DNA from: Planctomyces sp.
GTDB taxonomy: Bacteria; Planctomycetota; Planctomycetia; Planctomycetales; Planctomycetaceae
Direction: 5' to 3'
DNA length: 34,044 nt
Assembly (NCBI GenBank): GCA_005791255.1
Contig: SXXK01000249.1
Location: 1-34,044 of the forward strand
The position numbers and the translations under genes were made by a program. This document shows, one piece after another, positions 572 through 34,043 of this stretch (positions are counted from its first letter, which is position 1; every line of letters begins with the position of its first letter). Below the pieces are notes generated by a model that worked only from the letters and a program-made list of their open reading frames with translations, had not been told where the DNA came from and ran no database searches.

Positions 572-1771
572 TCACGCCGCCCGACGCACCCGCATCCGCA
601 GCACGCCACCGGTCGCCTGCACCACGCGATCCAAATCCCCGTCCGTCAGATTCGGCGTCGACGGAAAACTCAAAGCCTGCTCAAACAGCCGGTCAGCCGT
701 CCCGTTCAGTACAGCCTGAGCACTCTGATGCGCTGGACTCAAATGCATCGGCTGCCACAGCCGACGAGTCTGAATCTTCGACCGCTGCAGCTGATCCCGC
801 AATTCACACGCTGTCACACCCGCCTGCACAGGATCCACCAGCGCAGTCGACAACCAGCTTGTCGAACTCGCACCCGGCGCGTCCGTATGCCACGTCAAAC
901 CCGCTCCGCACAGACCACCGCGATAATACGCCGCTATCTCACGACGACGCTGCACAAAACCATCCAGTTGCTCCAGCTGCGCAAGTCCTATCGCCGCCAG
1001 CACATTCGTCATCCGATAATTGTACCCCACCTCGTTGTGGATGTACTCGATCGCATCGTCCTTCGCCTGAGTCGTCAGGTAACGGGCTCGATCAGCGTCG
1101 GACTGCGAATTCGTCAGAATCATCCCGCCGCCACCACAGGTGATCGTCTTGTTCCCATTGAAACTCAGACACGCCAGATCACTCGTCGCACCAATCTTCT
1201 TCCAGTGCAGTGACGCTCCCAGTGACTCCGCAGCATCCTCAATCAACCGCAGGCCAAACGCCTCTGCCTCGGCAGTAATCGCCGGCAAATCCACCGGATG
1301 ACCCAGCACATGCACCGGCATGATCGCACGGACACGACGTCCCGTCACCCGATTCCGCAGCTCACCATGCTCTGCCCGACACTCCCGACGCAGAAAATCC
1401 CGCACCAGCTGCGGATCCATCTGCCAGTACCGCGGCTCAGAATCAATCAGCACCGGATGCGCACCCGCGTACCGAATCGCATTCACCGTGGCAATAAATG
1501 TCAGCGTCGAGACCAAAACCTCATCGCCCGGCTCCACTCCCGCCGTCAGCATCGCCGCATGCAATGCTGACGTCCCGTTCACCGTCGCCACCGCATGCTT
1601 CACACCCACATACTCGGCCACCCGCTGCTCAAATCGATTGACAAACGCACCAACCGATGAAATCCAGCCGGAATCCAGACATTCCTTCACATACTGCCAC
1701 TCATTCCCCTGCAGACAGGGTTCACTCAATGGCAGAAATCGCTCGCCACTCTGGTCAGACGTTGTAGACAT
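572..1771 (-). CDS. legC: LegC-family PLP-dependent sugar aminotransferase
   Basis: A 399-residue DegT/DnrJ/EryC1/StrS-fold aminotransferase. The N-terminal LPLSEPCLQGNEWQYVKECLD block (13-33) with GWISSVG is characteristic of the LegC subgroup. The PLP-binding lysine is K208 in SFNGNK, and EDAAES (188-193) holds the pyridine-binding Asp. Expected reaction: transfer of an amino group from glutamate to C4 of the 4-keto-6-deoxy sugar nucleotide made by LegB, giving GDP-4-amino-4,6-dideoxy-GlcNAc. The reading frame stays open to 2017, but the ATG at 1771 starts the conserved protein and overlaps the 3' end of legB by 17 bp, which suggests translational coupling. It is the last gene of the seven-gene operon. 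PseC or other 4-aminotransferases are alternatives, but the neighbours favour LegC. Confidence 0.88.
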   Translation of the reverse strand: MSTTSDQSGERFLPLSEPCLQGNEWQYVKECLDSGWISSVGAFVNRFEQRVAEYVGVKHAVATVNGTSALHAAMLTAGVEPGDEVLVSTLTFIATVNAIRYAGAHPVLIDSEPRYWQMDPQLVRDFLRRECRAEHGELRNRVTGRRVRAIMPVHVLGHPVDLPAITAEAEAFGLRLIEDAAESLGASLHWKKIGATSDLACLSFNGNKTITCGGGGMILTNSQSDADRARYLTTQAKDDAIEYIHNEVGYNYRMTNVLAAIGLAQLEQLDGFVQRRREIAAYYRGGLCGAGLTWHTDAPGASSTSWLSTALVDPVQAGVTACELRDQLQRSKIQTRRLWQPMHLSPAHQSAQAVLNGTADRLFEQALSFPSTPNLTDGDLDRVVQATGGVLRMRVRRAA

Positions 1772-2738
1772 CGGCTCGATAACCCTTTGAATTCCCGCGA
1801 AACCACTCAATCGTCTGCTGCAGGCCATCTTCCAGCGTAACAGTCGGCTTCCAGCCCACCGTCTCAGCCGCCAGTCGATTGTCAGCCAGCAGCCGCTCCA
1901 CTTCACTCGCCGCAGGTCGCAGCCGCTGCTCGTCACACTCAATCCGCACGTTCGTTCCCACCAGACGAGCCACCAGCCCGGCCAGATCACCCACACTGAT
2001 CTCACGGCCCGAGCCAATGTTCAAAGTCTTACCCACGGCATCCGGATGAGCCGCACAGGCCATGAAACCCGCTGCCGTGTCAGCCACATAGTTCAGATCG
2101 CGAGTCGGAGTCAGACTGCCCAATCGCACCGTCCGTCCCGCCAGACACTGAGTAATGATCGTCGGCAGCACCGCCCGAGCTGACTGTCGCGGACCATACG
2201 TGTTGAACGGTCGCACCGTCACCACCGGCAAACCAAACGACCTGTAATACGACTCCGCCAGCTTGTCCGAACCAATCTTGCTGGCAGAATACGGCGACTG
2301 ACCCTGCAGCGGATGAGTCTCCGAGATCGGCACAAACAGCGCCGTCCCGTACACCTCACTCGTCGACGTCTGCACAATCCGCTCCGTGCCCAGTCGCCGC
2401 GCAGCCTCCAGCACGTTCAATGTCCCCACAATATTCGTCTGCACATACGACAATGGCGCCGTATACGAGTACGGTATGGCAATCAATGCAGCAAGGTGAA
2501 ATACCACCTCCCGACCCTGCATCGCTGACGCCACCGAACCACTGTCGGTAATGTCACCCGCCACAATCTCCATGTCCTTCTGCAACAGTGACTCATCCAG
2601 CCAGCCGCGACGACCGCCCGAATTGTAACGCACCATCGCCCGGACACTGGCACCGGCACGCACCAGCGACTCCGCCAGATGGCTGCCAATGAAACCGCCC
2701 GCCCCCGTAACCAGTACCCGCTTCCCTGCCCAGCTCAT
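1755..2738 (-). CDS. legB: LegB-like NAD-dependent sugar-nucleotide 4,6-dehydratase
   Basis: An extended short-chain dehydrogenase/reductase of 327 residues. The NAD-binding motif TGAGGFIGSH lies at 11-20, a TSTSEVYG segment contributes the catalytic Ser/Thr, and the YxxxK pair is Y150/K154 (YSASK). The early RYNSGGRRGWLD stretch matches the LegB subgroup. It is expected to oxidise C4 and remove the 6-hydroxyl of GDP-GlcNAc, giving the 4-keto-6-deoxy intermediate for LegC. A GTG at 2747 would add three residues, but the ATG at 2738 forms an ATGA overlap with the stop of ptmE and has AGGTGG 5 nt upstream, so it is preferred. A UDP-sugar substrate cannot be excluded from sequence alone; the adjacent PtmE-type gene points to GDP. 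Confidence 0.88.
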   Translation of the reverse strand: MSWAGKRVLVTGAGGFIGSHLAESLVRAGASVRAMVRYNSGGRRGWLDESLLQKDMEIVAGDITDSGSVASAMQGREVVFHLAALIAIPYSYTAPLSYVQTNIVGTLNVLEAARRLGTERIVQTSTSEVYGTALFVPISETHPLQGQSPYSASKIGSDKLAESYYRSFGLPVVTVRPFNTYGPRQSARAVLPTIITQCLAGRTVRLGSLTPTRDLNYVADTAAGFMACAAHPDAVGKTLNIGSGREISVGDLAGLVARLVGTNVRIECDEQRLRPAASEVERLLADNRLAAETVGWKPTVTLEDGLQQTIEWFRGNSKGYRADVYNV

Positions 2739-3811
2739 GCTGCCCACCTGACTCGCTCCACGTCTTCCTGTGCCTTCTGAAAATCATCCAGCCGACCAAT
2801 GTCCAGCCAGTACTCCATCACCGGGAATCCCACGACCCGCTCACCCTGAGCCAGCAGCCGGTTAATCAGATCCGTCATGTCATAGCGCCCGGCATCCGGA
2901 ATGTGCTTCAACACCGTCGGCTCCAGCAGGTAAATCCCCGCGTTCACCAAAAATGTGATCCGCGGCTTCTCCCGCAGCTCACTCACCATACCGTCCTTCG
3001 CTTCCACAACTCCATACGGCACCTGCATCTCGTACTGCCGCAATGCCACCGTCAACTGCGACTGATGCTCGCGATGAAACTTCATCATCGCCCGATAATC
3101 CACGTTCGTCAGAATGTCGCCGTTCATCACCAGCAACGGCTCATCCACCTCACTGATCAGCCGCAGCGCTCCGGCCGTTCCCAGCGGCTGGTCCTCGGAC
3201 ACATAATTCAGGTCCACCCCGAATTTCTGCCCTTGTCCAAAATGCTGAATAATCTTCTCCGGCATGTAATGCGTCGTCACATTGATTCGCGAAATGCCGG
3301 CACGCTGCAATCCCTCTATCGTCCGCTCCATCAGCGGGCGACCGCCCACCTGCAGCATTGGCTTCGGAGTATCATCGGTCAGCGGCCGCAGCCGAGTCCC
3401 AAATCCACCCGCCATGATCACCGCCTGCAGCGGCAGTACTTCCTCACGCACAAAGTCCGCACAACTCAGCTCAGCCACCGTGCCGTCCGCCTCAAGCAAG
3501 GGCAGATGGCGAATCTGAGCCCTCGCCATGATCGCCAGCTGCTCGTCCCGCGGAGTTCCCACCGGAGCCGTCGTCGACTTCTTGTTGCGAATGTCCACCG
3601 CAACACTCAGCAACGTCCCCAGTGCATGACCCGCCAAAATCGCTCGACGCAGATCCCCGTCCGTAATCGTTCGCAGAAAGCGCTGCTGTTCGTCCACCAG
3701 CAGCACCACGCCCCGCGAATTGGCATCAATCGCAGCCATCGCGTCCTGCACCGTCGCCGACGCCTGAATCAACAGCTTTTCCAGTATCGAGATGGCTTCC
3801 CTGCCGCTCAT
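2735..3811 (-). CDS. ptmE: PtmE-like sugar-1-phosphate guanylyltransferase with N-terminal CBS pair
   Basis: A 358-residue two-part protein. Residues ~10-120 form two CBS-like repeats. Residues ~128-350 form a nucleotidyltransferase whose signature MAGGFGTRLRPLTDDTPKPM begins at 133, with the metal-binding NGD at 230-232. The CBS plus nucleotidyltransferase architecture is that of Campylobacter PtmE, which makes GDP-GlcN for legionaminic acid; that role is inferred here from architecture and neighbours. The ATG at 3811 overlaps the legH stop as ATGA, and its own stop overlaps the legB start in the same way. The CBS pair may let nucleotides regulate flux into the pathway. A generic mannose-1-phosphate guanylyltransferase-like activity is the main alternative. 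Confidence 0.85.
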   Translation of the reverse strand: MSGREAISILEKLLIQASATVQDAMAAIDANSRGVVLLVDEQQRFLRTITDGDLRRAILAGHALGTLLSVAVDIRNKKSTTAPVGTPRDEQLAIMARAQIRHLPLLEADGTVAELSCADFVREEVLPLQAVIMAGGFGTRLRPLTDDTPKPMLQVGGRPLMERTIEGLQRAGISRINVTTHYMPEKIIQHFGQGQKFGVDLNYVSEDQPLGTAGALRLISEVDEPLLVMNGDILTNVDYRAMMKFHREHQSQLTVALRQYEMQVPYGVVEAKDGMVSELREKPRITFLVNAGIYLLEPTVLKHIPDAGRYDMTDLINRLLAQGERVVGFPVMEYWLDIGRLDDFQKAQEDVERVRWAA

Positions 3812-4464
3812 GAACCTGATCTCCGTATCGCTCTGGCAGGCACACCCGCCACTACCGCCTCCGGCGGCACATCCCTGATCACCACGGCACCGGCACCCAC
3901 GATCGCACGGTCACCGATCTCCAGATTCTCGCAGATTGTCGCTCCGGCTCCAATATGGACTTGCCGACCAACCCGCACACCACCGGCCAGACAGGCCCGC
4001 GGAGCAATATGCACGTCAGCGCCAATCCGGCAATCATGCTCCACAATCGAACCGGAATTCAGAATCACATTCTCACCAATTTCCGCACACGCATTCACGA
4101 TCGCTCCCGCCAGCACCTGACTTCCCGGCCCCAGCACCGCAGATTCTGCCACCACGCTTGCCGGATGTCGCAGAACTCCAGGTGCCAGCCCCGCCTGCAC
4201 CGCCGCTTCAAACAGCCGCCGCCGCAAACCAAATGCCCGAACACCCCCAACCGCCACAAAAAACTGCGTAAAACCCTCACTTCTCATCCGCGGAAGCAAC
4301 TCGTCACCGCCCGCCACCGGAATCCCCAGCAGTCGCGTCCCACACAACTCCGGACGGGCGTCCAGTACCACAGCACGCCCCGCCAGACCCAGCAGATGCA
4401 AAGCATCCGCCAGCACTCGAGCGTGCCCGCCGGCACCGATCAACACCACCCCGTCCGCCACCAT
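3808..4464 (-). CDS. legH: NeuD/PglD/LegH-type sugar N-acetyltransferase
   Basis: A 218-residue acyltransferase of the NeuD/PglD type. An N-terminal Rossmann-like half (VVLIGAGGHA at 6-15) is followed by a left-handed beta-helix of hexapeptide repeats (~100-212). The likely catalytic base is H143 in SIVEHDCRIG. In a legionaminic pathway it would acetylate the 4-amino group made by LegC with acetyl-CoA (the LegH step). NeuD-type O-acetylation of the finished sugar is the alternative. The ATG at 4464 has GAGG 6 nt upstream; a GTG one codon earlier is too close to that site. The gap to the upstream legG stop is 8 nt, and the 3' end overlaps ptmE by 4 bp. Confidence 0.83.
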   Translation of the reverse strand: MVADGVVLIGAGGHARVLADALHLLGLAGRAVVLDARPELCGTRLLGIPVAGGDELLPRMRSEGFTQFFVAVGGVRAFGLRRRLFEAAVQAGLAPGVLRHPASVVAESAVLGPGSQVLAGAIVNACAEIGENVILNSGSIVEHDCRIGADVHIAPRACLAGGVRVGRQVHIGAGATICENLEIGDRAIVGAGAVVIRDVPPEAVVAGVPARAIRRSGS

Positions 4465-4472
4465 CACACACC

Positions 4473-5657
4473 TCAGAAAGGACTCAAAAGCTCCGGCAAA
4501 CCCGCCCCACAGTCAAAAAATCGCTTGATCAGCAATCGCTCGTCCAGTGCCACAGAACCCAGCACTCCCACGATCCGCTCCGCCGCACGACCGTCCCCGT
4601 AAATATTCCGCACACCCCGACAGTGTTCACGAAACTCCGCCGACAACGCCCGCCGCATCGCACCACCAATCCCCGCCGCACTGTCATCACAATCCAGCAC
4701 ATTCCCCGAACGCGGACGCCCCTCCTGCCGCAAACCGATATTCACAACCGGCAACTGAAACGACGCCGCCTCAATAATCCCGCTCGAAGAATTCCCCACC
4801 ATCACCGCCGCATGACGCATCAGACTGAAATACGCCTCTGTCCCCAGATTACTCACCAGCCGCACACGCGATCGACCCGCCGCAAACCGCTCCAGTCGCT
4901 CCACAATCTCACTGCTCCTCGTGTCGGCGTTCGGCCGTGTCATTACAATCGGCAGCTCCATCGAAGCCAGCACACTCAACAACGCCTCCGTCTGCTCCCC
5001 CGCACGCTCCGACTGCAGTGTCACCGGATGCTGAGTCACCAGAATCGGTGCCTCCGACAGCGACATTCCCACCCGCTCCGACAACTCCCCCACACTCAGC
5101 AGACGAATACGGCCCAGATGATCCAGCCCAGGCGCACCGCTGACCGTCACCCGCCACGGCTCCTCACCCAGTTGCACAATCCGTCGCCCATGCTCCGCTG
5201 TCGATGCAAAATGCAGATGCGAATACTTCGTTATCGCATGCCGAAAACAGTCGTCAATCGCCCCCGCCGTCACCTCGCCACCATGCACATGCGCCGTCGG
5301 CAGCCGAAACGGAACCGCCGCCGCTGCCGCGGCATGCATCTCAAACCGATCCCCCAGCACCAGCAGCAGATCCGGACGCACACGCTGATAGACCTGCGCA
5401 AATCCTATCGTCCCCAAACCCATCGACACCGCAATCGCTGCAGCGTCATCCGACGCCAGCAACATCGGCACACGATCCTCAATCTCAAACCCGTCCGCCG
5501 CAATCACTGCATCCGTACGACCATGACCAGACACCAGATGAGCACCAGCGGCAATCAAATGCAGCCGCAAATCCCCCCGCTCACGCAGACAGCGCAAAAT
5601 CGGCAGATACAGCCCCCAGTCCGATCGACCGACTGTCACCACACAGACAGTCCTCAT
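4473..5657 (-). CDS. legG: NeuC/LegG-type hydrolysing NDP-HexNAc 2-epimerase
   Basis: A 394-residue GT-B fold epimerase of the NeuC family. Visible landmarks are the N-terminal VVTVGRSDWGLYLPIL, LVLGDRFEM near 100-107, HGGE at 125-128, TQHPVT near 208 and GNSSSGIIEA at 288-297. NeuC-type enzymes invert C2 and cleave the nucleotide. In a GDP-route legionaminic pathway this yields 2,4-diacetamido-2,4,6-trideoxymannose for LegI. Neither a PseG-like hydrolase nor a separate PseI-type arrangement is present. The ATG at 5657 overlaps the legI stop (ATGA). Whether the substrate is GDP- or UDP-linked rests on the neighbouring ptmE/legB genes. Confidence 0.88.
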   Translation of the reverse strand: MRTVCVVTVGRSDWGLYLPILRCLRERGDLRLHLIAAGAHLVSGHGRTDAVIAADGFEIEDRVPMLLASDDAAAIAVSMGLGTIGFAQVYQRVRPDLLLVLGDRFEMHAAAAAAVPFRLPTAHVHGGEVTAGAIDDCFRHAITKYSHLHFASTAEHGRRIVQLGEEPWRVTVSGAPGLDHLGRIRLLSVGELSERVGMSLSEAPILVTQHPVTLQSERAGEQTEALLSVLASMELPIVMTRPNADTRSSEIVERLERFAAGRSRVRLVSNLGTEAYFSLMRHAAVMVGNSSSGIIEAASFQLPVVNIGLRQEGRPRSGNVLDCDDSAAGIGGAMRRALSAEFREHCRGVRNIYGDGRAAERIVGVLGSVALDERLLIKRFFDCGAGLPELLSPF

Positions 5658-6715
5658 CCCACATCCTCCAGCCGCAGCAGCTCACCCGCAGCCACCGGAA
5701 CTCGCAGAGTCCGCGAAATCAGATACGGTTTCATCGCCGGAGGCAGACCGGTGCCCGGTCGCCGAATCGCGATCATCTCATCCGTCAGACAGGTGCCCGC
5801 CGACAGGTCAGCAGCAGCCACCAGACTTCGCCGCGCCGCCTTCGCCGTATCCAGCTCAGCACTGCACGGAGCCTTCCGCCCCGTCCCCAAACACGCCTCC
5901 ACTGTTCGGATACCCGCTATCAGACGCCGCAACTCCTCAGGCTCAGATGACGCACGATGATCCGGGCCAGGCAGACTGCGATCCAAAGTAAAATGCTTCT
6001 CAACCACACACGCGCCCAGTGCCACCGACGCCAGCGACACCTCGATCCCCAGCGTGTGGTCCGAATAACCCACCGGCAAACCAAAAGCCGCTCGCATGCT
6101 CAGCATCGCCCGCAGATTCACATCCCCGGCCGCCGCCGGATAATTGCTCACGCAGTGCAGCAGAATAATCTGCCCGTTCCCAGTACTCTCCACAGCCGAA
6201 ACCGCCGCCTCCACATCCCCCAAAGTACTCATGCCCGTCGATATCACCAGCGGACGACCAAATCCAGCAATGTGACGCAGCAGCGGCAGATTCGTCAGCT
6301 CACCCGAAGGCACCTTGAAAATGGTCATCCCCAGCGAATTCAGCATCGTCGCACTGTCCTCGTCGAACGGAGTCGACATGAACAGTATCCCCCGCGCTCG
6401 ACAATGCTCCGTGATCACCCGATGGTCCGCGTCACTCAGCTCAAGCGACTTCAGCATCTGAAACTGAGTCTGCTGCTTACCAGTATTCTCCGCCTGATAC
6501 TTCGCCGTCGGAGCTGCTTTCGTTACCAGTTTCTCAGCACGAAATGTCTGAAACTTGACAGCATCAGCGCCCGCCTCCGCGGCCACATCAATCGAACGCA
6601 GCGCCAGATCCACACTGCCATTGTGGTTCACTCCCACCTCGGCAATCACAAAACATGGCTGACCGGTACCAATCGCCCGCTCACCCGCCAGCACTGTCTG
6701 CACCGACGTCTCCAT
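5654..6715 (-). CDS. legI: NeuB/LegI-type nonulosonic acid synthase
   Basis: A 353-residue NeuB family protein that condenses phosphoenolpyruvate with a 6-carbon N-acetylated sugar to form a 9-carbon nonulosonic acid. The TIM-barrel landmarks are AEVGVNHNG (25-33), KFQTF (54-58), HCVSNYPA (187-194), GYSDH (216-220) and EKHFTLD (239-245). Residues ~295-350 form the C-terminal SAF (antifreeze-like) lid with PGTGLPP. The ATG at 6715 is chosen because AAGGAG lies 8 nt upstream; a GTG at 6724 would sit directly against that site. The sequence alone does not separate LegI from NeuB or PseI; the assignment relies on LegB/LegC/PtmE next door. Confidence 0.9.
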   Translation of the reverse strand: METSVQTVLAGERAIGTGQPCFVIAEVGVNHNGSVDLALRSIDVAAEAGADAVKFQTFRAEKLVTKAAPTAKYQAENTGKQQTQFQMLKSLELSDADHRVITEHCRARGILFMSTPFDEDSATMLNSLGMTIFKVPSGELTNLPLLRHIAGFGRPLVISTGMSTLGDVEAAVSAVESTGNGQIILLHCVSNYPAAAGDVNLRAMLSMRAAFGLPVGYSDHTLGIEVSLASVALGACVVEKHFTLDRSLPGPDHRASSEPEELRRLIAGIRTVEACLGTGRKAPCSAELDTAKAARRSLVAAADLSAGTCLTDEMIAIRRPGTGLPPAMKPYLISRTLRVPVAAGELLRLEDVG

Positions 6716-6769
6716 ACCACTCACTCCTTCCGCTGCGGACGACGCAATCCCCCTCCCCGCTCACACTCC

Positions 6770-7507
6770 TCACGCGGCACGTCGCAGCACCTGCGGCATA
6801 CCCTCCGACGTCAGCCGACGCTGCATCAGAAATTCAGCCAGCTCAAAATCCAGCGGAGTATCTATATCCACGGCACGCTCACGAGGCACCAGCACCGCTC
6901 GCACACGACCCGCAAAAATCGAATCCAGATTCATCACCGAATCACGACGCGCTGCATATGCCACCGCCGTCAGCTCGTAGACATCCGGAGCATCCTGGCG
7001 ACGCACCACATTCCCTGGTGGCTGCACCGCAATCCGCGCCGAACCCGTGGAATCCATCGTAATCATGTTGAAGTACGGATTCGCCGCTGCCTCCGTCGCT
7101 GTTACCACAATGTCCGCATCCGTGCTCAGCAGCAGCTCAATACAACGATCAATGTCCTCAGACTGCCGCAGCGGACACGTCGCAGGAATACTCACCAGCA
7201 CGTCATATCGAGTCTGCTCAAGCTGCTCCATCGTCTGAATCGCATGCCGCCACGCCAGACGCTCCGCCGCCGTATCCGTCGCCAGCTCCGCCGGACGCCG
7301 AAATGGCGCCTCCGCTCCCCACGCACAAGCCGTTCCGGCAATCGACTCACAATCAGTCGAAACAATCTGCCGCGATATGTAACGGCTGCCCAAAGCGGCC
7401 TGCACCGCCCACGCAATCAACGGACGACCACACAACATCCGAATGTTCTTGCCCGGTACGCCCTTCGAACCACCCCGCGCAAAGGTACAACTGAGAATTC
7501 GTGTCAC
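6770..7507 (-). CDS. legF: NeuA/LegF-type CMP-nonulosonate cytidylyltransferase
   Basis: A 245-residue acylneuraminate cytidylyltransferase that activates the nonulosonic acid with CTP. The CTP-binding signature RGGSKGVPGKN is at 11-21, near the N-terminus as usual, and a CPLR stretch follows in the middle. The start is set by a GTG at 7507 with AGGGAGG 7 nt upstream. The frame is open to 7612, and an ATG at 7531 is possible but has no good ribosome-binding site. It is the first gene of the - strand operon, about 75 nt downstream of the predicted transcription start. A 54-bp gap separates it from legI. There is no fused phosphatase or acetylesterase domain. Confidence 0.9.
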   Translation of the reverse strand: MTRILSCTFARGGSKGVPGKNIRMLCGRPLIAWAVQAALGSRYISRQIVSTDCESIAGTACAWGAEAPFRRPAELATDTAAERLAWRHAIQTMEQLEQTRYDVLVSIPATCPLRQSEDIDRCIELLLSTDADIVVTATEAAANPYFNMITMDSTGSARIAVQPPGNVVRRQDAPDVYELTAVAYAARRDSVMNLDSIFAGRVRAVLVPRERAVDIDTPLDFELAEFLMQRRLTSEGMPQVLRRAA

Positions 7508-7514
7508 CGACCCG

Positions 7515-7521
7515 CCTCCCT
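7515..7521 (-). promoter_or_regulatory. Ribosome-binding site deciding the legF start
   Basis: AGGGAGG on the - strand ends 7 nt before the GTG at 7507. The more upstream ATG at 7531 lacks such a site, so this favours the GTG start and the standard-length N-terminus. Confidence 0.65.
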
Positions 7522-7589
7522 GTCCGGCCATACCACATCTTCGTTCCGCAGAAACCTCGTGTTTCCGGCAAATCCTCCGAGCACTCCCG

Positions 7590-7619
7590 CTTATATTCCA
7601 CCCTCCCGACATCGGTCAA
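7590..7619 (-). promoter_or_regulatory. Sigma70-like promoter of the leg operon
   Basis: On the - strand, TTGACC (7619-7614) and TATAAG (7595-7590) are separated by 18 nt. Each hexamer matches the sigma70 consensus at 5 of 6 positions. Transcription would start near 7583, leaving an untranslated leader of about 75 nt before the legF GTG. It lies inside the long open frame extending upstream of legF, which supports the downstream start codon. Confidence 0.6.
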
Positions 7620-7774
7620 GTCCAGCGATTTCCCAACCGTCAAATACCCCCGAAAACGCCGCTTTTCCCAACACAAATGCCCACCCACAAAAAAACTGCC
7701 CGCCAAAAACCGAATCCGTTCGGATTTTCATTGCAATCAGTCGGTTTCCTGTTCCTCGCACAACGCGTTCTGTC

Positions 7775-7804
7775 TTTACGACAATACCCGCCACACACTA
7801 TCCT
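7775..7804 (+). promoter_or_regulatory. Weak candidate promoter for the hisF-like operon
   Basis: TTTACG (7775-7780) and TATCCT (7799-7804) are 18 nt apart on the + strand, each matching the sigma70 consensus at 4 of 6 positions. The start would be near 7812, about 93 nt ahead of the hisF-like ATG. No better + strand candidate was seen in the region. Confidence 0.3.
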
Positions 7805-7904
7805 CCCCTCCGGCAATGGATTTGCAAAACCGGGCGCCACAACCACCGGTAATCTCACGACTCCGTCTCGAATCAGTCTCAAACGGCAGGGATGCCCGCT
7901 TCCT

Positions 7905-8765
7905 ATGTCCATGGTTCGTGTCATCGCCCGACTCGACATCAAAGGCCCCAGCCTCGTCAAAGGGATCCGGCTGGAGGGACTCCGAGTCCTCGGCGATCCC
8001 GAAACTTTCGCCCGACACTACTACGAAGCCGGCGCCGATGAACTGATCTGCCAGGATGCCGTCGCCAGCCTCTACGGCCGCAACAGCCTCTGCGAAATCA
8101 TCTCACGCATCTCCCGCGAAGTCTTCATACCACTCACCGTCGGCGGCGGACTCCGCTCACTCGATGATATCCGCGCCGTCCTCTCCGCCGGTGCCGACAA
8201 AGTCGCCATCAATACCGCCGCCATTCATGACCCCGAACTCATCCGCGAAGCCTCCCGACGCTTCGGATCCTCCACCATCGTCGTCGCCATCGAAGCCGGA
8301 AAACAGGCCAACGGCTCATGGCTCGCCTTCACCGATAACGGACGCGAACACACAGGCGTCGATGCACTGCAGTGGGCGGCTCGGGCAGAAGAACTGGGCG
8401 CCGGCGAAATCCTCGCCACCTCCATCGATCGCGAAGGAACCGGCGAAGGCTTCGATCTCGAACTCTGCCGAAAAATGACCGTCGCCGTCCGCATCCCCGT
8501 CATCGCTCACGGCGGTCCCGGGAAAACAGAACACGTCGTCGACGTCGTAAAAAACTGCAGCGTCAGTGCTGTTGCCGTCAGCAGTATCCTCCACTACGAA
8601 GCCATCCACTCCATTCAAAGCCGCTCCGCAAATACACCCGAAGGAAATCGCGAAGTCCTGCAAAGCGGACGCTCCGTCTCACACGTCCGACCCTGCACCA
8701 TCCCACAACTCAAACAAGCTCTGCTCAACGCCGGAACCGTCTGCCGAATGGAGGACGCGGCATGA
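7905..8765 (+). CDS. hisF: HisF-like ammonia-channelling subunit of a sugar amidotransferase system
   Basis: A 286-residue (beta/alpha)8 barrel of the HisF family, about 30 residues longer than usual because of a C-terminal tail. HisF landmarks are visible: RVIARLDIK (D11), VGGGLRS (79-85), [25 protein letters not shown], and HGGPG. The position that is the second catalytic Asp in histidine HisF (about 130) is Glu here (VVAIEAG). Paired with hisH (4-bp overlap) and followed by a WbpG-type gene, it most likely delivers glutamine-derived ammonia for sugar amidination rather than making histidine. The ATG at 7905 is used; an ATG at 7911 is equally possible, and neither has a strong ribosome-binding site. 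Confidence 0.85.
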
Positions 8766-9418
8766 ACAGACTCAAAGTGCAAATCGTCGATTACGGACTC
8801 GGAAACCTCTTCAGCATCCGACACGCCTGCCTGCACAGCGGCATCGATGCCGAAATCTCAACCCGACCCGAAAACCTCATGCAGGCCGATGGCATCATCC
8901 TCCCCGGAGTCGGTGCCTTCGGACATGCCATGGACACCCTTCGACAACTCCAGCTCCTCCAGCCACTCCGCGATGCCGTCGCCGCAGGAAAACCACTGCT
9001 CGGAATCTGCCTCGGTATGCAGCTGCTCCTCGATGCCAGTGAAGAATTCGGACTCCATCAGGGACTCGGACTCATCCCCGGCGTCGTTCGAAAGCTGCCG
9101 GAACACCGCGCAGACGGCAGCCTTCGCCGAAGACCCGCCGTCGGCTGGAACCAAATTCAGCTCAATCCCCACCGATCCCAGCCACAAATCGACTGCGGAT
9201 TGCCGGACTCCGCATGGATGTACTTCGTCCACTCCTTCGCTGCTGCACCGGAACACACCGCCGATGTGCTGACCTTGACAGATTACGAAGGAATCCAGTA
9301 TTGCTCTGCCATTCGACGTGACCACGTAACAGGCGTACAGTTCCACCCGGAACGCAGCGCTCGTTACGGGTTGCAGTTCCTCAAACACTGGGCGTCCAGC
9401 CTCACCACCGCCAACTGA
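8762..9418 (+). CDS. hisH: HisH-like glutaminase subunit of a sugar amidotransferase system
   Basis: A 218-residue class I glutamine amidotransferase. The nucleophile is C83 in GICLGMQ, and H195/E197 in QFHPE complete the triad. The start VQIVDYGLGNL is typical of HisH. It would hydrolyse glutamine and pass ammonia to the HisF-like barrel. Its ATG overlaps the hisF stop as ATGA. The pairing with a WbpG-family gene 19 bp downstream matches the hisH2-hisF2-wbpG sets of O-antigen loci that form acetamidino sugars, so a role in histidine biosynthesis is unlikely. Confidence 0.87.
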   Translation: MNRLKVQIVDYGLGNLFSIRHACLHSGIDAEISTRPENLMQADGIILPGVGAFGHAMDTLRQLQLLQPLRDAVAAGKPLLGICLGMQLLLDASEEFGLHQGLGLIPGVVRKLPEHRADGSLRRRPAVGWNQIQLNPHRSQPQIDCGLPDSAWMYFVHSFAAAPEHTADVLTLTDYEGIQYCSAIRRDHVTGVQFHPERSARYGLQFLKHWASSLTTAN

Positions 9419-9437
9419 ACTGTTCGGATTCTGACTC

Positions 9438-10709
9438 ATGGATGAGAAACTTCCGGCATATTACGGCCTCCCCTCGGAAGTCCGCTTCTGCAGCCGCTGC
9501 GTGATGTCCAACCAGCGCCCCGCTTCCGCAGTGGAATTCCGTCACACCATCGATTCCCGCAAAAAAACCCTCGCCATCGATTCTCAGGGTATCTGCGATG
9601 CCTGCCGCGTCGCCGAACAGAAACAGACCATCGACTGGCAATCCCGCGAAGAACAACTGCTGCAGCTGCTGGACCGCTATCGCAGCAAGGATGGCTCATA
9701 TGACTGCCTCGTGCCCGGCAGCGGTGGCAAGGACAGCGACTACCAGGCACACGTCCTCAAATACAAATACGGCATGCACCCGCTGACCGTTACCTGGCCT
9801 CCTATCCTGTACACCGAATACGGTTACCAGAACTGGAAGAACTGGATCGACGTCGGTGGCTTTGACAATCTGTCGTTCACCCGCAACGGTCGAGTCATGA
9901 AGCTGCTGACGAGACTCAGCATCGAAAACCTGTTTCACCCCTTCCAGACATTCATCCTCGGACAAAAAAATCTCGGTCCGCGCCTCGCCGCAAAAATGGG
10001 CATCCCGCTCGTATTCTACGGCGAAAATGAAGCGGAATACGGCAACCCAATCGCTGATACCACTTCCAGCCTCCGCGACAAATCCTTCCACACCTACGAC
10101 AATCTCGAAGAAATGTACCTCGCCGGTGTCTCCATCCGCGAACTGACAGAACGCTACGGAGTCAGTCAGGGGGATCTCGCCTGCGTCCTGCCCCCACGCG
10201 AAGCTGAACTGCAGCAGGTTGATGTGCAGGTGCACTACCTCGGCTACTACCTGAAATGGACTCCTCAGGAAGTCTACTACTACGCAGTCGAAAACTGCGG
10301 CTTCAAAGCACGCCCCTTCCGCACACAGGGCACCTACAGCAAATACAACAGCATCGACGACAAAATCGATGACCTGCACTACTACACAACCTGGATCAAA
10401 GTCGGCATTGGTCGTGCCACCTACGATGCATCACAGGAAATCCGCAACGGACACATCTCCCGCGAAGAAGCTGTCGCACTCGTCAACCGCTTCGATGGCG
10501 AATTCCCCGATCGCTACTTCCGCGAAGTGATGGACTACATCGAAATGGACCCCGACCACTTCCACACCATCACCGACAGATTCCGATCTCCGCACCTGTG
10601 GAAACAGGACGCACAGGGACGCTGGCACCTGCGGCACCGCGTGGGCGGCAATGGTGTCGATGACCGAACGGCAGCACATGTCAGCGGCAACAGCGCAAAA
10701 GCCGCCTGA
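9438..10709 (+). CDS. wbpG: N-acetyl sugar amidotransferase (WbpG/PseA/PtmG family)
   Basis: A 423-residue protein of the PP-loop ATPase superfamily. The PP-loop PGSGGKDS is at 93-100. Ahead of it are two Cys pairs (C18/C21 in FCSRC and C53/C56 in CDAC) that probably bind zinc. GENEAEYGNP further on is also a family feature. Members adenylate the N-acetyl carbonyl of a sugar and replace oxygen with ammonia, giving an acetamidino group. In WbpG systems the ammonia comes from a HisH/HisF pair, as found directly upstream. Next to a legionaminic pathway, the likely target is an N-acetyl of the nonulosonic acid or its precursor, as with Campylobacter PtmG. The exact position modified cannot be read from the sequence. 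Confidence 0.88.
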   Translation: MDEKLPAYYGLPSEVRFCSRCVMSNQRPASAVEFRHTIDSRKKTLAIDSQGICDACRVAEQKQTIDWQSREEQLLQLLDRYRSKDGSYDCLVPGSGGKDSDYQAHVLKYKYGMHPLTVTWPPILYTEYGYQNWKNWIDVGGFDNLSFTRNGRVMKLLTRLSIENLFHPFQTFILGQKNLGPRLAAKMGIPLVFYGENEAEYGNPIADTTSSLRDKSFHTYDNLEEMYLAGVSIRELTERYGVSQGDLACVLPPREAELQQVDVQVHYLGYYLKWTPQEVYYYAVENCGFKARPFRTQGTYSKYNSIDDKIDDLHYYTTWIKVGIGRATYDASQEIRNGHISREEAVALVNRFDGEFPDRYFREVMDYIEMDPDHFHTITDRFRSPHLWKQDAQGRWHLRHRVGGNGVDDRTAAHVSGNSAKAA

Positions 10710-10735
10710 GATTCCGGTTGTGGCCGGGCAGGCTC

Positions 10736-10740
10736 AGGAG
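10736..10740 (+). promoter_or_regulatory. Ribosome-binding site deciding the start at 10750
   Basis: AGGAG lies 9 nt before the ATG at 10750. The upstream in-frame ATGs (10651, 10660, 10678) lie inside wbpG and lack a comparable site. Confidence 0.6.
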
Positions 10741-10749
10741 CAATCGCAT

Positions 10750-12198
10750 ATGGATGGCGAACACACTCTGAAGTTCACGCAGCCCACCACCACGGCTCAG
10801 CCCGCGGCCGGGACGGTCGTCGTACATGCCGCCTACCCGCTCTGGCGAAAACACCTGCTCGTCACCATGGCACGCGCTCGCGAACTGCAGGATGACGGAC
10901 ACAAAGTCGTCGTTACCCATTGCAATGCCACTGCCGGAACCTGCGCCGCCAACTACGCCGGAAACCCCGCTGCCTGCCTCGTCTGTCGCAACCGCGTCCG
11001 CAGCACCGCCGCCGAACTCGGACTGCAGACCATCCCACTCGCCGTTGATGCCTCCGTCGATCAGCAGCAACCAACGCTGCCCTTCAGCGAGCAACGCGCC
11101 GTCCTTGAAGGTGTGCAGAGCGGTGTCATCTCCACATTCCGCACCATGCCCGAAACCGCCCGCCGGGAACCACTCATCCGTCGCATCAAACGACGCTACT
11201 TCAGCAACTCCACCAGATTGCTGAAATCCATGAAAAACGTCGTCGCTGAACTGCAGCCCGAACGAATTGAAGTTTTCAACGGGCGACACGGCTGCTCCAA
11301 ATTCGCCGTCGTCGCCGCTCGCTCCGCCGGCATCGACTTCACAATCCTCGAAGTCAGCGCTAAACAACACCCCTTCATCTGCCCAGGATACCTCGTCCAC
11401 GATCGACGCAAAATTCAGCAGCGTATCATGCAGCAGCCTGCGGATTATGATGTCGCTGACGCATGGTACACAGCCAATCGACGCCCCCGCACCAACAAAT
11501 ACGCCAAACGACACGGTACCGAATTCACACCACCGACAACGTCACCCGGAACACGAAAAGTCAGCATCTTTCTCAGCAGCCAGGATGAATTCGCCTCGCT
11601 CGGAAAAGACTGGATCTCACCCTTCCTCGACTACGGACCCATCGTCGAAAAAGCCTGCCGCGAAAATCCTGACATGTTCTTCGTTGTCCGGTTCCACCCG
11701 AACCAGGCAGACATGGCCGGCGATCTGCTTACACCGTTCAAAAAAACCGCCGAACTGCCCAACGTACGCATCCACTACGCAGACGAACCTGTCAATTCCT
11801 ACAGCATCATGGAATGGAGCGATATCGTAGTTACCTTCGGCTCCACCATCACCGTCGAAGCCTGCTGGGCCGGTAAACCCGTTATCACACTCGGACCATC
11901 CTTCTTCGACAATCTGCAGGTCGCTTACACACCCCGCACTGTCGCTGATTTCGTCAGCCTGCTCCGAACAGACCTGCAGCCGCACAGCCGCGATAACGCA
12001 GCCCGCTACGCCTGCTTCCGCATGTTCGATCAGGACCAGTTGAAATACGTCCGACACACCGGAAAAACCATGGTCGAAAATGGTTTCACCATCCGCTACC
12101 CGTGGCTGGGACAACTTGCCAGAACCACCGATGATCTGATCTGTAACGCCATAAAAATGTGGGCCGGACACCGCGCCCGCAGAAAAAAGTCCGCCTGA
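10750..12198 (+). CDS. Capsule-type glycan protein, possible HP-motif glycosyltransferase
   Basis: A 482-residue protein with the layout of a GT-B type capsular polysaccharide or CDP-glycerol-transferase-like enzyme. The second half contains FVVRFHPNQAD, an HP motif as in several Kdo, sialyl and polyol-phosphate transferases, and then SYSIMEWSDIVVTFGSTITVEACWAGKPVI, the usual donor-side helix and strand. The first half has an unusual Cys-rich stretch (CNATAGTCAANYAGN, then CLVCRNR), possibly a metal site. It is cytoplasmic, with no signal peptide. The ATG at 10750 is chosen by its ribosome-binding site; starts back to 10651 would overlap wbpG by up to 59 bp. A glycosyltransferase for the surface glycan is inferred; donor and acceptor are unknown. 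Confidence 0.6.
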   Translation: MDGEHTLKFTQPTTTAQPAAGTVVVHAAYPLWRKHLLVTMARARELQDDGHKVVVTHCNATAGTCAANYAGNPAACLVCRNRVRSTAAELGLQTIPLAVDASVDQQQPTLPFSEQRAVLEGVQSGVISTFRTMPETARREPLIRRIKRRYFSNSTRLLKSMKNVVAELQPERIEVFNGRHGCSKFAVVAARSAGIDFTILEVSAKQHPFICPGYLVHDRRKIQQRIMQQPADYDVADAWYTANRRPRTNKYAKRHGTEFTPPTTSPGTRKVSIFLSSQDEFASLGKDWISPFLDYGPIVEKACRENPDMFFVVRFHPNQADMAGDLLTPFKKTAELPNVRIHYADEPVNSYSIMEWSDIVVTFGSTITVEACWAGKPVITLGPSFFDNLQVAYTPRTVADFVSLLRTDLQPHSRDNAARYACFRMFDQDQLKYVRHTGKTMVENGFTIRYPWLGQLARTTDDLICNAIKMWAGHRARRKKSA

Positions 12199-12245
12199 CA
12201 CTGAACCTCTGACTTCACCCCCACTCACCCGATCAGGTAACTGCC

Positions 12246-12821
12246 ATGAACGTTCAGGAAATCCTCGCTGCACACGCACTCTGGACAGCCGCATGGCACC
12301 AGGCACCACCGGACAACAGCGAATCCGGAATCCTCGCTCTGGCCCGACAAAACCACTTCGAAAACTTCTCACTCTGGCACGAAGAGGATATCGCACGCCG
12401 CGATGACCTCGGACCCGAACGCATCCGCCAGGCAAAACGCACCATCGATCGGCACAACCAGCGCCGCAATGACCTCGTCGAACAGATCGACAAACACCTC
12501 GTACAGACACTGCAGCCACGCGAATCCGGCTGCCCCTTCAATTCCGAAACGCCCGGTATGATGGTCGATCGCCTGTCCATCCTCGCGCTCAAGGAATATC
12601 ACATGCACGAAGAAACTCTGCGATTCGACGCGGCTCCCGAACATCGCGAACGCTGCAGCACCAGACTGAATGTCATCCGCCGACAGATTCAGGACCTCGC
12701 AGTCGCACTCAGCGACCTGCTGGCCGAAGTTCAGCACGGCACTCGCAGCTTCCGCGTCTACTTCCAGTTCAAAATGTACAATGATACGGAACTTAATCCC
12801 CAGCTGCGAAAAGCAGCCTGA
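12246..12821 (+). CDS. DUF4254 family protein
   Basis: A 191-residue soluble, largely helical protein. HFENFSLWHEEDIARRDD, the RTIDRHNQRRNDLVEQID block and the FNSETPGMMVDRLSILALKEYHM stretch match the DUF4254 family as I recall it. The family has no established function but is often found beside glycosyltransferase genes in surface-polysaccharide loci, as here. The gene lies 47 bp after the capsule-type gene and 27 bp before the GT9 gene, consistent with one operon. The many conserved charged residues in helices suggest a binding or scaffold role, but that is a guess. Confidence 0.8.
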   Translation: MNVQEILAAHALWTAAWHQAPPDNSESGILALARQNHFENFSLWHEEDIARRDDLGPERIRQAKRTIDRHNQRRNDLVEQIDKHLVQTLQPRESGCPFNSETPGMMVDRLSILALKEYHMHEETLRFDAAPEHRERCSTRLNVIRRQIQDLAVALSDLLAEVQHGTRSFRVYFQFKMYNDTELNPQLRKAA

Positions 12822-12848
12822 CCCACACACTTCAAGGCCGCTGACCGT

Positions 12849-13826
12849 ATGCGACTGCTGATCATCAAACCCAGCTCACTCGGCGATATCATCTGCTCGC
12901 TCCCGGTCGCTCAGTCCATCCGCGATCAGCTGCCGTCCGCAGAAATCTCCTGGGTCGTCAAATCCCGATTCGCCGACATCGTTCGACGCTGCCCCACCAT
13001 CAACGGCGAAATCATCGAATTCCAGCACGCTCCCGGATTCCGCGGAGTCCTGGCAATCGCCCGCGTCATGCAGACTCTCCGCAAACGACACTACGACGCC
13101 GTGCTCGATTTTCAGGGACTCCTCAGATCCGGACTCATGACCTGGGCCGCCAATGCGCCCCTAAAAATCGGTATCGCTGATGCACGCGAAGGCAGCCGTT
13201 TCGCCTGCAACCACATCGCACCACTCCCTCCAGCCGGAAAAAACTCACACGCCATCAGCAAATTGCTGCAGTTCCTCCCGCCACTCGGACTCCAGCCACG
13301 ACTGCACTCCCCGGTCATCATGCACGGTGACTCACCCGACAGCCTCGATCACAGACTCAACCGCCAGCGACTGGTCGTTATGATCCCCAACAGTCGCGGA
13401 GCTCACAAGGAATGGCGCGGATTCCGTGAGCTGACCTGCGACCTGCTCAACGCTGATCCACACTGCACTGTCGTCTGGGACAGCCACCTGCCATGGGAAA
13501 ATCCGCCCCTCGCTGACACCGATCGCTTCGTCAATCTCACCCGCCGCTCCTCACTCCCACAACTCATCGAACTGCTCCGACGCGCAGACCTCGTTGTCGC
13601 CAATGACAGCGGACCACTGCACATGGCCGCTGCACTCGGCAGACCCACACTTGCACTCTTCGGACCAACCAGCCCCGAACGCTTCGGTGCATTTCCACCC
13701 GAAGAACCACGCAACCGCTGCCTCCAGGCTCCCGCTGGTGACCTCAGCAGACTGACCGTCGCGACCGTACTCCGAGCAGCCCTCGAAATGCTGCCCGCCA
13801 TGCAAACACAACGCGCTGCCGCCTGA
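12849..13826 (+). CDS. Glycosyltransferase family 9 (heptosyltransferase-like)
   Basis: A 325-residue GT-B protein. The N-terminal LLIIKPSSLGDIICSLPVA (3-21) is the GT9 acceptor-domain signature. The C-terminal donor site includes NDSGPLHMAAALG (252-264) followed by LFGPTSPERFG. GT9 members move heptose or other sugars from nucleotide donors onto lipid A core or similar acceptors on the cytoplasmic face. Here it probably adds a sugar to the glycan that carries the nonulosonic acid. Donor specificity cannot be inferred from sequence. Confidence 0.88.
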   Translation: MRLLIIKPSSLGDIICSLPVAQSIRDQLPSAEISWVVKSRFADIVRRCPTINGEIIEFQHAPGFRGVLAIARVMQTLRKRHYDAVLDFQGLLRSGLMTWAANAPLKIGIADAREGSRFACNHIAPLPPAGKNSHAISKLLQFLPPLGLQPRLHSPVIMHGDSPDSLDHRLNRQRLVVMIPNSRGAHKEWRGFRELTCDLLNADPHCTVVWDSHLPWENPPLADTDRFVNLTRRSSLPQLIELLRRADLVVANDSGPLHMAAALGRPTLALFGPTSPERFGAFPPEEPRNRCLQAPAGDLSRLTVATVLRAALEMLPAMQTQRAAA

Positions 13827-13883
13827 AAACACAAGCCGGTGACGCAGCCTCCCGAATTCACAGCACTCCCGGCACGCAGCCCC

Positions 13884-14915
13884 ATGCAGACCTCACGATC
13901 CGCCAACCTCTACCTCGCCTGCACTCCGCTGCAAATCCTGAATGCCGCTGAAGCACGCGACCGCTTTCACCCCGACGACGACAACTTCCTCGTCGTCTTT
14001 CACAGCCCCCGCTCCTCCAAAAAACAGGCCCGACTCGCAGAACTCGCTGATGATGCCATCGATCACCACTGGACTCGCACATGGAACCTGCGACTCACAC
14101 GCATCTCACAACTGCTGTTCCCTTTCACCGCCCGAAAACTGCGACAGCAGATCGGTCACTGCCAGTCCCTCTGGACCGGCGGATTCCAGACCCAGCAACG
14201 TCACCTGCTGCACTCCATTCCCCACAATCAACTGATCGTGTTCGATGGTGGTGCCGGTGTCCTGCAGTCAGCCGTCAACTCCTGGCGCTCGCAGGGAACC
14301 CGCTCTCGCTCCCTCAAACAACTTATCCCCGGACAAAACACCAGCCTGCCGGACCTCAGCAAAGCGAAATTCTTCACCAGCTACGCTCTCGATATGCCTC
14401 CGGAATCCGTCATCACCAATGACTACCGAGTATTCCGGAGCCATGTCTCAGATAAACTTCCCGTTCGCGACGAAATCGTCTTCCTCTCCCAGCCCCTGCA
14501 GCGGGATCTCGGACTACAGCTCGATGTGGATGCCACCATTGATGCAGCCCTGAAATTCCATAACGCCAGCCGCTGCCGCTACATCCTCCACCCACGCGAA
14601 ATCAGCGGCCCGCCAAACGCCGAAAAACTGCCATACCTCGCCGAATTCTTCGGCATCCGCGAAGGCTACCTGCCCAAAGCCTTTGTCACCTGGATGTCCT
14701 CCGTCGCACGCAGCCTCCCCGCCATCTACGGACGACCCGTCTCCTGCTTCGATATCCGACCTCTCATGCCACCCGGCACCTCCACAAACTACCTCCGGGA
14801 ACTGCAGGCCACCTACGACGATTTCGCGGCCGCCGGAGCCATCATCCTGCCACAGCCGGTAACCCGTCATAACAGCTCAGGCTCGCTCGCTACGCCCGAA
14901 TCCAGCGCCGCCTGA
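13884..14915 (+). CDS. GT52/polysialyltransferase-like glycosyltransferase, candidate nonulosonic acid transferase
   Basis: A 343-residue protein that resembles bacterial sialyltransferase-type families. The start ANLYLACTPLQILNAAEA is the usual N-terminal pattern. FDGGAG (D121) is in the place of the D/E-D/E-G motif, FLSQPL precedes the donor region, and HPRE (H236-P237) is the HP motif that contacts the CMP-sugar. Because CMP-legionaminic acid is made in the adjacent operon, this is the best candidate in the window for transferring it. Start choice is uncertain: the ATG at 13884 fits family length, and a GTG at 13839 would add 15 residues. Neither has a clear ribosome-binding site. DGG instead of D/E-D/E-G is a deviation. 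Confidence 0.68.
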   Translation: MQTSRSANLYLACTPLQILNAAEARDRFHPDDDNFLVVFHSPRSSKKQARLAELADDAIDHHWTRTWNLRLTRISQLLFPFTARKLRQQIGHCQSLWTGGFQTQQRHLLHSIPHNQLIVFDGGAGVLQSAVNSWRSQGTRSRSLKQLIPGQNTSLPDLSKAKFFTSYALDMPPESVITNDYRVFRSHVSDKLPVRDEIVFLSQPLQRDLGLQLDVDATIDAALKFHNASRCRYILHPREISGPPNAEKLPYLAEFFGIREGYLPKAFVTWMSSVARSLPAIYGRPVSCFDIRPLMPPGTSTNYLRELQATYDDFAAAGAIILPQPVTRHNSSGSLATPESSAA

Positions 14916-14956
14916 ACATCAATCAGACCCCGACCCGCCTCACCCTCCCCAACTTC

Positions 14957-16390: not shown

Positions 16391-16403
16391 ATCCCGCACA
16401 CCA

Positions 16404-22870: not shown

Positions 22871-22921
22871 CCCACGCTTTCCCATCTCATTGCACAAACA
22901 CAAAACCAACTCACAGCAACA

Positions 22922-25197: not shown

Positions 25198-25221
25198 CCG
25201 CTCGCCCCAGCTTCCCAACAG

Positions 25222-28990: not shown

Positions 28991-29016
28991 CACAGACACC
29001 CGCCAGCCGCTCACAA

Positions 29017-30471: not shown

Positions 30472-30478
30472 CTCACTT

Positions 30479-30483
30479 CTCCT
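30479..30483 (-). promoter_or_regulatory. Ribosome-binding site of the first DUF1501 gene
   Basis: AGGAG on the - strand lies 7 nt before the ATG at 30471 and decides this start over upstream candidates. Confidence 0.7.
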
Positions 30484-30516
30484 CAACAAATTCACTACCA
30501 CACCAAACACCTGCAC

Positions 30517-33654: not shown

Positions 33655-33818
33655 GCGACATCCTCTGCAGGTCCGAAAGAAAAGGCCGTCACCACCTATC
33701 CTACCACGAGCTCCCCGGAGGACACTTCGAGAATCCGGAGAGGGCAGGGGATTCCGAAAATCGCTGCCGTTCAATCCCGGCCAGCCGTTTTGCCCGGAAC
33801 CTTGGTTTTTTCGATCCT
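33655..33818. other. Intergenic gap between the ATPase and the PSD1 gene
   Basis: A 164-bp gap. On the - strand it contains an AAAAAA tract right after the ATPase stop, a TTGAAC without a well-spaced -10 element, and GGTAGGATAG (possible weak -10) closer to the PSD1 start. Neither a convincing promoter nor a terminator hairpin was found, so the start of the downstream operon remains undefined. Confidence 0.5.
33661..33665 (-). promoter_or_regulatory. Ribosome-binding site of the PSD1/LamG gene
   Basis: GAGGA on the - strand lies 6 nt before the ATG at 33654 and fixes the start ahead of the signal peptide. Confidence 0.65.
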
Positions 33819-34043
33819 TTACCCCGCCCGACCAATCAGCTTCCGCACCTCCACCAGCAACACCGGCAACAATGAACAAAACCCAATCAGCAACCAGTCC
33901 CCCGGATCCAATGACACCGTCTGCAGCACGCGCTGAAACAATGGCAAATAGACAGCCGCACACTGCAGCACAAAACACACTGTCACAGCACCCCACAACC
34001 ACACATTTGTGAACAGGCGGCGAGTAAAAATGGAACGCCGCTG
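33819..34043 (-). CDS. C-terminal end of a P-type cation-transporting ATPase (5' end outside window)
   Basis: The last 74 residues of a longer protein, entering from the right edge of the window. The reading RRLFTNVWLWGAVTVCFVLQ, then VYLPLFQRVLQTV and WLLIGFCSLLPVLLVEVRKL, is the end of the C-terminal transmembrane domain of calcium- or other cation-translocating P-type ATPases (two hydrophobic segments, F-x-N-x-W-L-W-G motif). The domain sits in the cytoplasmic membrane. Ion specificity cannot be judged from this part. Its stop is 164 bp upstream of the PSD1 start, so it may or may not be cotranscribed. No clear terminator was seen between them. Confidence 0.82.
   Translation of the reverse strand, partial: QRRSIFTRRLFTNVWLWGAVTVCFVLQCAAVYLPLFQRVLQTVSLDPGDWLLIGFCSLLPVLLVEVRKLIGRAG

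Follow-up and report, generated by a model that had tools for sequence, protein, structure and literature searches.

Two divergent operons on a contig of Planctomyces sp. (SXXK01000249.1, here C206) most likely work together to make CMP-Leg5Am7Ac, an acetamidino-legionaminic acid activated with cytidine monophosphate (CMP). One operon encodes a pathway to legionaminic acid (Leg), and the other a trio, consisting of a HisF-like barrel, a HisH-like glutaminase and an N-acetyl sugar amidotransferase of the WbuX/WbpG family, that probably gives this sugar a positively charged amidine group. Read from the sequence, the evidence consists of a full pathway, an intact glutaminase, the PP-loop and zinc motifs of the amidotransferase, a change in one acidic residue of the cyclase-like barrel, and conservation of the locus. 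The window analyzed was the whole contig of 34,044 bp, from an assembly of 5.58 Mb in 542 contigs that was 88% complete. An initial annotation had described a legionaminic pathway facing a HisF/HisH/WbpG-like trio, which was confirmed by family models, by open reading frames (ORFs) for all genes that it named and by a 397-bp gap between the operons. Its prediction of an amidinated legionaminic acid was supported by the placement of the amidotransferase in the clade of LpNASAT from Legionella pneumophila, by a synthase of the neuraminic (Neu) or Leg kind and by the completeness of the pathway. The minus-strand pathway (572–7507) faces the plus-strand trio (7905–10709) as follows.

572–1771, minus strand: LegC aminotransferase (TIGR04181, 436.6 bits, cut-off 420; the listed ORF runs to 2017, with a likely start near 1771)
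1755–2747, minus strand: LegB 4,6-dehydratase (TIGR04180, 461.1 bits, 14 bits below the cut-off of 475)
2735–3811, minus strand: PtmE-like protein with CBS and nucleotidyltransferase domains (Pfam NTP_transferase, CBS)
3808–4467, minus strand: LegH/NeuD acetyltransferase (TIGR03570, 216.8 bits, cut-off 160.8)
4473–5657, minus strand: LegG/NeuC hydrolysing 2-epimerase (TIGR03568, 410.8 bits, cut-off 235.9)
5654–6724, minus strand: LegI/NeuB nonulosonate synthase (TIGR03569, 440.7 bits, cut-off 399.65)
6770–7507, minus strand: LegF CMP-nonulosonate synthetase (Pfam CTP_transf_3; loosely typed, its best model being PseF at 141.1 bits, below the cut-off of 205.7; start taken as the GTG at 7507 in a listed ORF that runs to 7612)
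7508–7904, no strand: divergent intergenic region, 397 bp between the start codons of the two operons
7905–8765, plus strand: HisF-like barrel (WbuZ, 262.3 bits, cut-off 299.7; hisF, 248.0 bits, cut-off 294.55; Asp 11, Glu 130)
8762–9418, plus strand: HisH-like glutaminase (TIGR01855, 189.7 bits, cut-off 105.4; Cys and His-Pro-Glu motifs intact; 4-bp overlap with the HisF-like gene)
9438–10709, plus strand: WbuX/WbpG-family N-acetyl sugar amidotransferase (TIGR03573, 351.1 bits, cut-off 203.2; tetracysteine C18, C21, C53 and C56; PP-loop SGGKDS at residues 95–100)
9525–9569, plus strand: 15-residue lid of the amidotransferase, codons 30–44, from the alignment with LpNASAT

From 7507 down to 572, the genes were ordered LegF, LegI, LegG, LegH, PtmE-like, LegB and LegC, with overlaps at four of the six junctions. 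The LegB/C/H/G/I/F set was complete, and four of its members (LegC, LegH, LegG and LegI) exceeded their NCBIfam cut-offs. LegI, the sole NeuB match found in this 88%-complete genome, scored 289.0 bits with the PseI model, below the cut-off of 340.25 and against 440.7 bits with TIGR03569, and had Gly in its SGE motif where synthases of pseudaminic acid (Pse) have Phe. Gly at this place is described for Neu and Leg synthases (PMC7371886); the position-184 rule for NeuB in the same paper found no matching position in the present alignment. By these sequence features the synthase is of the Neu/Leg kind and not of the Pse kind, and, between Neu and Leg, the joint presence of LegB and LegC favors Leg. 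NCBIfam and Pfam scans recognized no extra epimerase gene in the operon. The PtmE-like enzyme is predicted to supply the nucleotide-linked precursor, which we take to be the role of PtmE. This role is named in PMC13317340.

Among the proteins of the genome, only the amidotransferase matched TIGR03573. It was identical to LpNASAT (PDB 8WEX) at 241 of 400 aligned residues (60%), and both share the lid, an insertion of about 15 residues between the two CXXC pairs of LpNASAT that is reported missing from the other aligned members, WbpG, Escherichia coli WbuX and two Campylobacter sequences included (PMC10607449). When the lid columns were excluded from a 100-row tree, the 84 lid-bearing rows, LpNASAT and the window among them, formed one clade with a Shimodaira–Hasegawa-like approximate likelihood ratio test (SH-aLRT) support of 99, and the only short row inside this clade (L074) was ended by a contig end before the lid. 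Judged by both the insertion and common descent, the window enzyme is a member of the lid-bearing LpNASAT subgroup. The initial annotation had named a grouping with WbpG-type enzymes only as a finding that would tell against it; the lid, shared with LpNASAT and reported missing from WbpG (PMC10607449), argues against such a grouping, which was not supported in trees that held no WbpG, PtmG or PseA sequences.

The HisF-like protein keeps the first of the two residues that we take to be catalytic in HisF (Asp 11 and Asp 130, Thermotoga maritima numbering) and has Glu at the second, and its score lies below the hisF cut-off. A genuine hisF (385.2 bits), whose product has both Asp residues, and a genuine hisH (237.7 bits) were found elsewhere in the genome. 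Because of these separate genes and of the Glu at position 130, the window protein is, as far as its sequence tells, not an enzyme of histidine synthesis.

Relatives of the window amidotransferase numbered at least 546 in the database, of which the best 80, picked by similarity, were kept (the nearest 80). Their neighborhoods covered up to 10 kb per side, several ending at contig ends, and a gene was counted if it exceeded 100 bits. All 80 amidotransferases had the lid, which partly follows from the similarity-based choice. The pair of residues at HisF positions 11 and 130 was Asp/Glu in 71 of the 78 distinct rows from lid-bearing loci (80 rows, two loci appearing twice) and Asp/Asp in none. 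Among 15 rows from lid-less loci it was Leu/Asp in nine, Asp/Glu in three and other in three; the Asp/Glu cases (L051, L061, and L062) were the lid-less enzymes closest to that of the window. The three Phe-type (Pse) synthases seen, all planctomycete (L064, L067, and L068), were each accompanied by a Leu/Asp HisF-like protein and a lid-less amidotransferase. The coupling between residue pair and synthase type is not strict, since L056 combined a Gly-type synthase with Ile/Asp. Two loci of marine Alphaproteobacteria (L127, near 10001, and L141, near 2408) carried amidotransferases without some of the zinc-motif cysteines, Ser and Trp replacing two in both, and with the PP-loop kept.

The proposed route would begin with LegB, LegC, and LegH converting a nucleotide-linked N-acetylglucosamine to a 2,4-diacetamido sugar, the precursor being linked to guanosine diphosphate (GDP) if the PtmE-like enzyme acts as in Campylobacter. 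LegG would release and epimerize this sugar, LegI would join it to phosphoenolpyruvate and LegF would add CMP. By analogy with relatives, the HisH-like glutaminase would take ammonia from glutamine and the HisF-like barrel would hand it to the PP-loop amidotransferase, in which adenosine triphosphate (ATP) would activate the oxygen of an N-acetyl group for its conversion to an acetamidino group. The substrate would presumably be CMP-Leg5Ac7Ac and the site C-5 rather than C-7. The product would be a zwitterionic sugar, probably destined for a surface glycan. The initial annotation expected a mass about 1 Da below that of the diacetyl form, which agrees with the calculated change from 334.1376 to 333.1536 Da (-0.984 Da).

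The association of lid-bearing amidotransferases with nonulosonate synthases extended well beyond the window. Among the nearest 80 loci, NeuB was within reach of the amidotransferase in 58 and was found elsewhere in the genome for all of the remaining 22. The loci came from 12 named phyla, with five unplaced and nine belonging to Planctomycetota, a Scalindua among them. All 10 synthases beside lid-bearing enzymes that were compared preferred the NeuB model over PseI, and eight exceeded the NeuB cut-off; the synthase of L106 preferred NeuB yet lay well below both cut-offs. A survey of 392 planctomycete genomes, less dependent on similarity than the nearest 80, found WbuX over the cut-off in 24, of which 22 had NeuB, compared with 131 of the 368 others (Fisher p = 5e-8). 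NeuB was present in all seven planctomycete genomes of the lid clade, one of them (G312) placed by the tree with its lid region cut off. Since 36 of the 41 LegB genomes in the phylum lacked WbuX over the cut-off, amidination appears to be a minority trait there. Amidotransferases of this family were found in 11 of 72,556 plasmid records; carriage by phages was set aside, as 50,697 phage records gave no match. In six loci from gut-type Bacillota (L139, L145, L146, L154, L156, and L158; Faecalibacterium, Gemmiger and kin), the lid-bearing enzyme occurred with NeuB outside the fetched stretch and within the genome. L090 carried, over 8448–17255, two NeuB genes and a pair of lid-bearing amidotransferases, each preceded by a HisF-like gene.

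Several observations weigh against the synthesis of CMP-Leg5Am7Ac proposed here. The product and activity of the locus are predictions from its genes. The activity of LpNASAT was not assayed in the paper that describes it (PMC10607449), and LpNASAT is only a candidate for the ptmG-like ORF 28. The nearest 80 loci were chosen by similarity. In the phylum survey, which favored a link with NeuB as described above, LegB (E 1e-80) was not significantly linked to WbuX, being found in five of the 24 WbuX genomes vs. 36 of the 368 others (p = 0.09) and in only two of the seven planctomycete lid-clade genomes. In addition, three planctomycete genomes, G051 (L078), G186 (L077) and the congener G633 (L212), had WbuX over the cut-off and no NeuB match, which makes them candidates for amidination of other sugars. 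Nucleotide-sugar dehydrogenases were matched twice in the window genome itself, once only in part, so that other amidinable sugars are possible.

These last genomes and the dehydrogenases fit an alternative in which the trio amidinates another N-acetyl sugar, either a uronic acid linked to uridine diphosphate (UDP), which is what WbpG uses, or a 6-deoxy sugar like that of E. coli O145 WbuX, and merely adjoins the legionaminate operon. The several substrates reported within the TIGR03573 family (PMC10607449) are consistent with this too. Nevertheless, the trio adjoins the only NeuB of its genome in a layout common to three species, every one of the nearest 80 loci lies in a genome with NeuB, and the enzyme falls in the LpNASAT clade with a lid that WbpG and WbuX are reported to lack (PMC10607449), so that this alternative seems quite improbable. 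It is scarcely credible that the HisF- and HisH-like genes serve as surplus histidine genes outside any amidination system: the HisH-like protein does exceed the HisH cut-off, but better-scoring copies of both genes exist elsewhere in the genome, the HisF-like protein has the low score and altered residue described above, and both genes accompany the amidotransferase in 73 of the nearest 80 loci.

It is also conceivable, if unlikely, that legionaminic acid is amidinated at C-7 instead of C-5, or that the sugar is its 8- or 4-epimer. PseA is associated by name with Pse5Ac7Am (PMC13317340), the 8-epimer 8eLeg5Am7Ac is reported from Aliivibrio salmonicida (PMC7371886), and the loci L114 and L124 each combine two different amidotransferases with a single synthase in view. 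On the other hand, the nearest studied relative, that of Legionella, goes with the 5-acetamidino form (PMC3766260), and the operon contains no recognized gene for an additional epimerase.

Within the genus (the window genome and 17 congeners), WbuX exceeded the cut-off in four of the 18 genomes (the window genome, G629, G631 and, distantly, G633) and NeuB was found in six, G633 not among them. G629 and G631 had the same divergent locus, collinear through both operons, which indicates that the divergent layout is not due to chance. Over 16 genes compared with the congeners, aligned identity was 69–97% and the ratio of non-synonymous to synonymous substitution rates (dN/dS) was 0.03–0.23, implying purifying selection on the locus. 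In G629 the PtmE match was split over two frames (L209:7066–8140), reflecting either a mistake in the assembly or damage to the gene.

The divergent arrangement is the unusual part of the window locus, as synthase and amidotransferase lay on the same strand in 55 of the 58 nearest-80 loci with a synthase in reach. The initial annotation had the operons divided by a promoter region; the divergent gap is there, and a simple sigma-70 scan found no sigma-70-like promoter in it, so that the label is positional only. The two operons are probably of different origin, given that the amidotransferase groups with Bacteroidota while LegC and PtmE group with Planctomycetota, and the divergent orientation would fit this, since relatives keep the two genes on one strand. 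Best identity of the amidotransferase to any of its at least 546 relatives was 76%. It clustered with two sequences from Flavobacteriales (SH-aLRT 94), inside a group of 15 rows that was otherwise Bacteroidota except for one unplaced row (SH-aLRT 91), both values being below the starred level. The other proteins were placed with fast trees. Starred support was obtained for a group of six rows made up of the window LegC, four sequences from Planctomycetota and one desulfobacterial sequence, and for the pairing of PtmE with L106 (Planctomycetota); the row closest to LegI was L104 (Planctomycetota). The HisF-like protein leaned to Bacteroidota without firm support, and the HisH and LegG trees did not resolve the placement of the window.

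Beyond the trio, the plus-strand run continues past 10709 to about 17600 with the following genes.

10750–12198, plus strand: glycosyltransferase-like gene (weak Capsule_synth match, 26.8 bits; BFO_1060 family, 45.7 bits, cut-off 200)
12246–17600, plus strand: DUF4254, GT9, orf 13839, MBOAT acyltransferase and orf 16404 (linked to the locus by association only; collinear in G629 and G631)

The product of orf 13839 (13839–14915, 358 aa) had no Pfam, NCBIfam or PDB-chain match and no match beyond its own genome among 248 genomes of the class; the gene was present in the congeners G629 and G631. At the start of the protein, TPLQ follows a strand, a feature that may be sialyltransferase-like. Structure models of this protein and of the product of the gene at 10750 had low mean predicted local distance difference test (pLDDT) scores of 40.0 and 44.8, respectively, from three-row alignments. 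The minus-strand genes at 20141–34002, named by eye from their translations, included an SNF2-type helicase-like gene, a WD-repeat protein and long cytochrome/DUF1501-like planctomycete pairs, and are unrelated to the nonulosonate locus.

The trio is widespread across phyla and not peculiar to the window. L114 (5668–11182) and L124 (7305–11206) each contained one lid-bearing and one lid-less amidotransferase (44% and 40% identical to that of the window) and one synthase in the fetched stretch, and in L114 each of the two amidotransferases had its own HisF and HisH. Such pairs possibly amidinate two positions. A broader and rather doubtful conjecture is that the lid-bearing amidotransferase, the Asp/Glu HisF-like barrel and the Gly-type synthase make up one coupled, horizontally moving acetamidino-legionaminic module in at least 12 bacterial phyla, and that the lid-less partner in L114 and L124 amidinates the other amino group to yield a doubly amidinated nonulosonate. 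If so, zwitterionic acetamidino-legionaminic acid would be common among the surface sugars of environmental bacteria and not a trait of pathogens. We know of no report of a doubly amidinated nonulosonate, no search having been made.

The chemistry of the sugar is already known, and what is new is mainly where its genes occur, in a planctomycete. No report of amidinated legionaminic acid in planctomycetes was found in the open-licence papers searched, outside of which lies a large mass spectrometry survey (Kleikamp 2020) that may bear on the point. A zwitterionic, sialic-acid-like sugar is predicted for a planctomycete, and it could be sought by the 1,2-diamino-4,5-methylenedioxybenzene (DMB) labeling and mass spectrometry by which (Pse/Leg)AcAm, its isomer unresolved, was detected in a Methanoperedens enrichment (PMC11337218). 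The value of the locus lies further in the mixed origin of its two operons, in the loci L114 and L124, where a single synthase is in view beside amidotransferases of two kinds, and in the lid and HisF residue pair as simple sequence marks that may sort legionaminate-type from pseudaminate-type trios in metagenomes.

WbpG and WbuX partner HisF- and HisH-like proteins. Like the window enzyme, WbpG of Pseudomonas aeruginosa O5 and WbuX of E. coli O145 belong to family TIGR03573; unlike it, they act on ManNAc3NAcA and FucNAc sugars and are reported to lack the lid (PMC10607449). The PseA-kind trios of pseudaminate loci also place HisF, HisH and an amidotransferase beside a nonulosonate synthase, but differ in the Leu/Asp HisF-like protein and lid-less amidotransferase of the three planctomycete Phe-type loci. 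The flagellar legionaminic genes of Campylobacter (LegB/C/H/G/I/F, PtmE, and PtmG) encode the same steps, including a PtmE-type nucleotidyltransferase, and PtmG gives CMP-Leg5Am7Ac (PMC3766260, PMC13317340). Here the lid sets the window apart from a pair of Campylobacter sequences, one of which may be PtmG, that lack it by the account of PMC10607449. Amidinated legionaminic acid is reported for both L. pneumophila and Campylobacter (PMC3766260). In Legionella, CMP-Leg5Am7Ac is attributed to a ptmG homologue, and strains outside serogroup 1 have this sugar as the dominant residue of their O-antigen (PMC3766260). The window differs from the lipopolysaccharide locus of L. pneumophila in its planctomycete host and, it appears, in its two divergent operons and its downstream genes. 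It resembles this locus in the joint presence of NeuB, NeuA and NeuC genes with the amidotransferase (PMC3766260), and the two amidotransferases share not only the lid but also the tetracysteine and the PP-loop.

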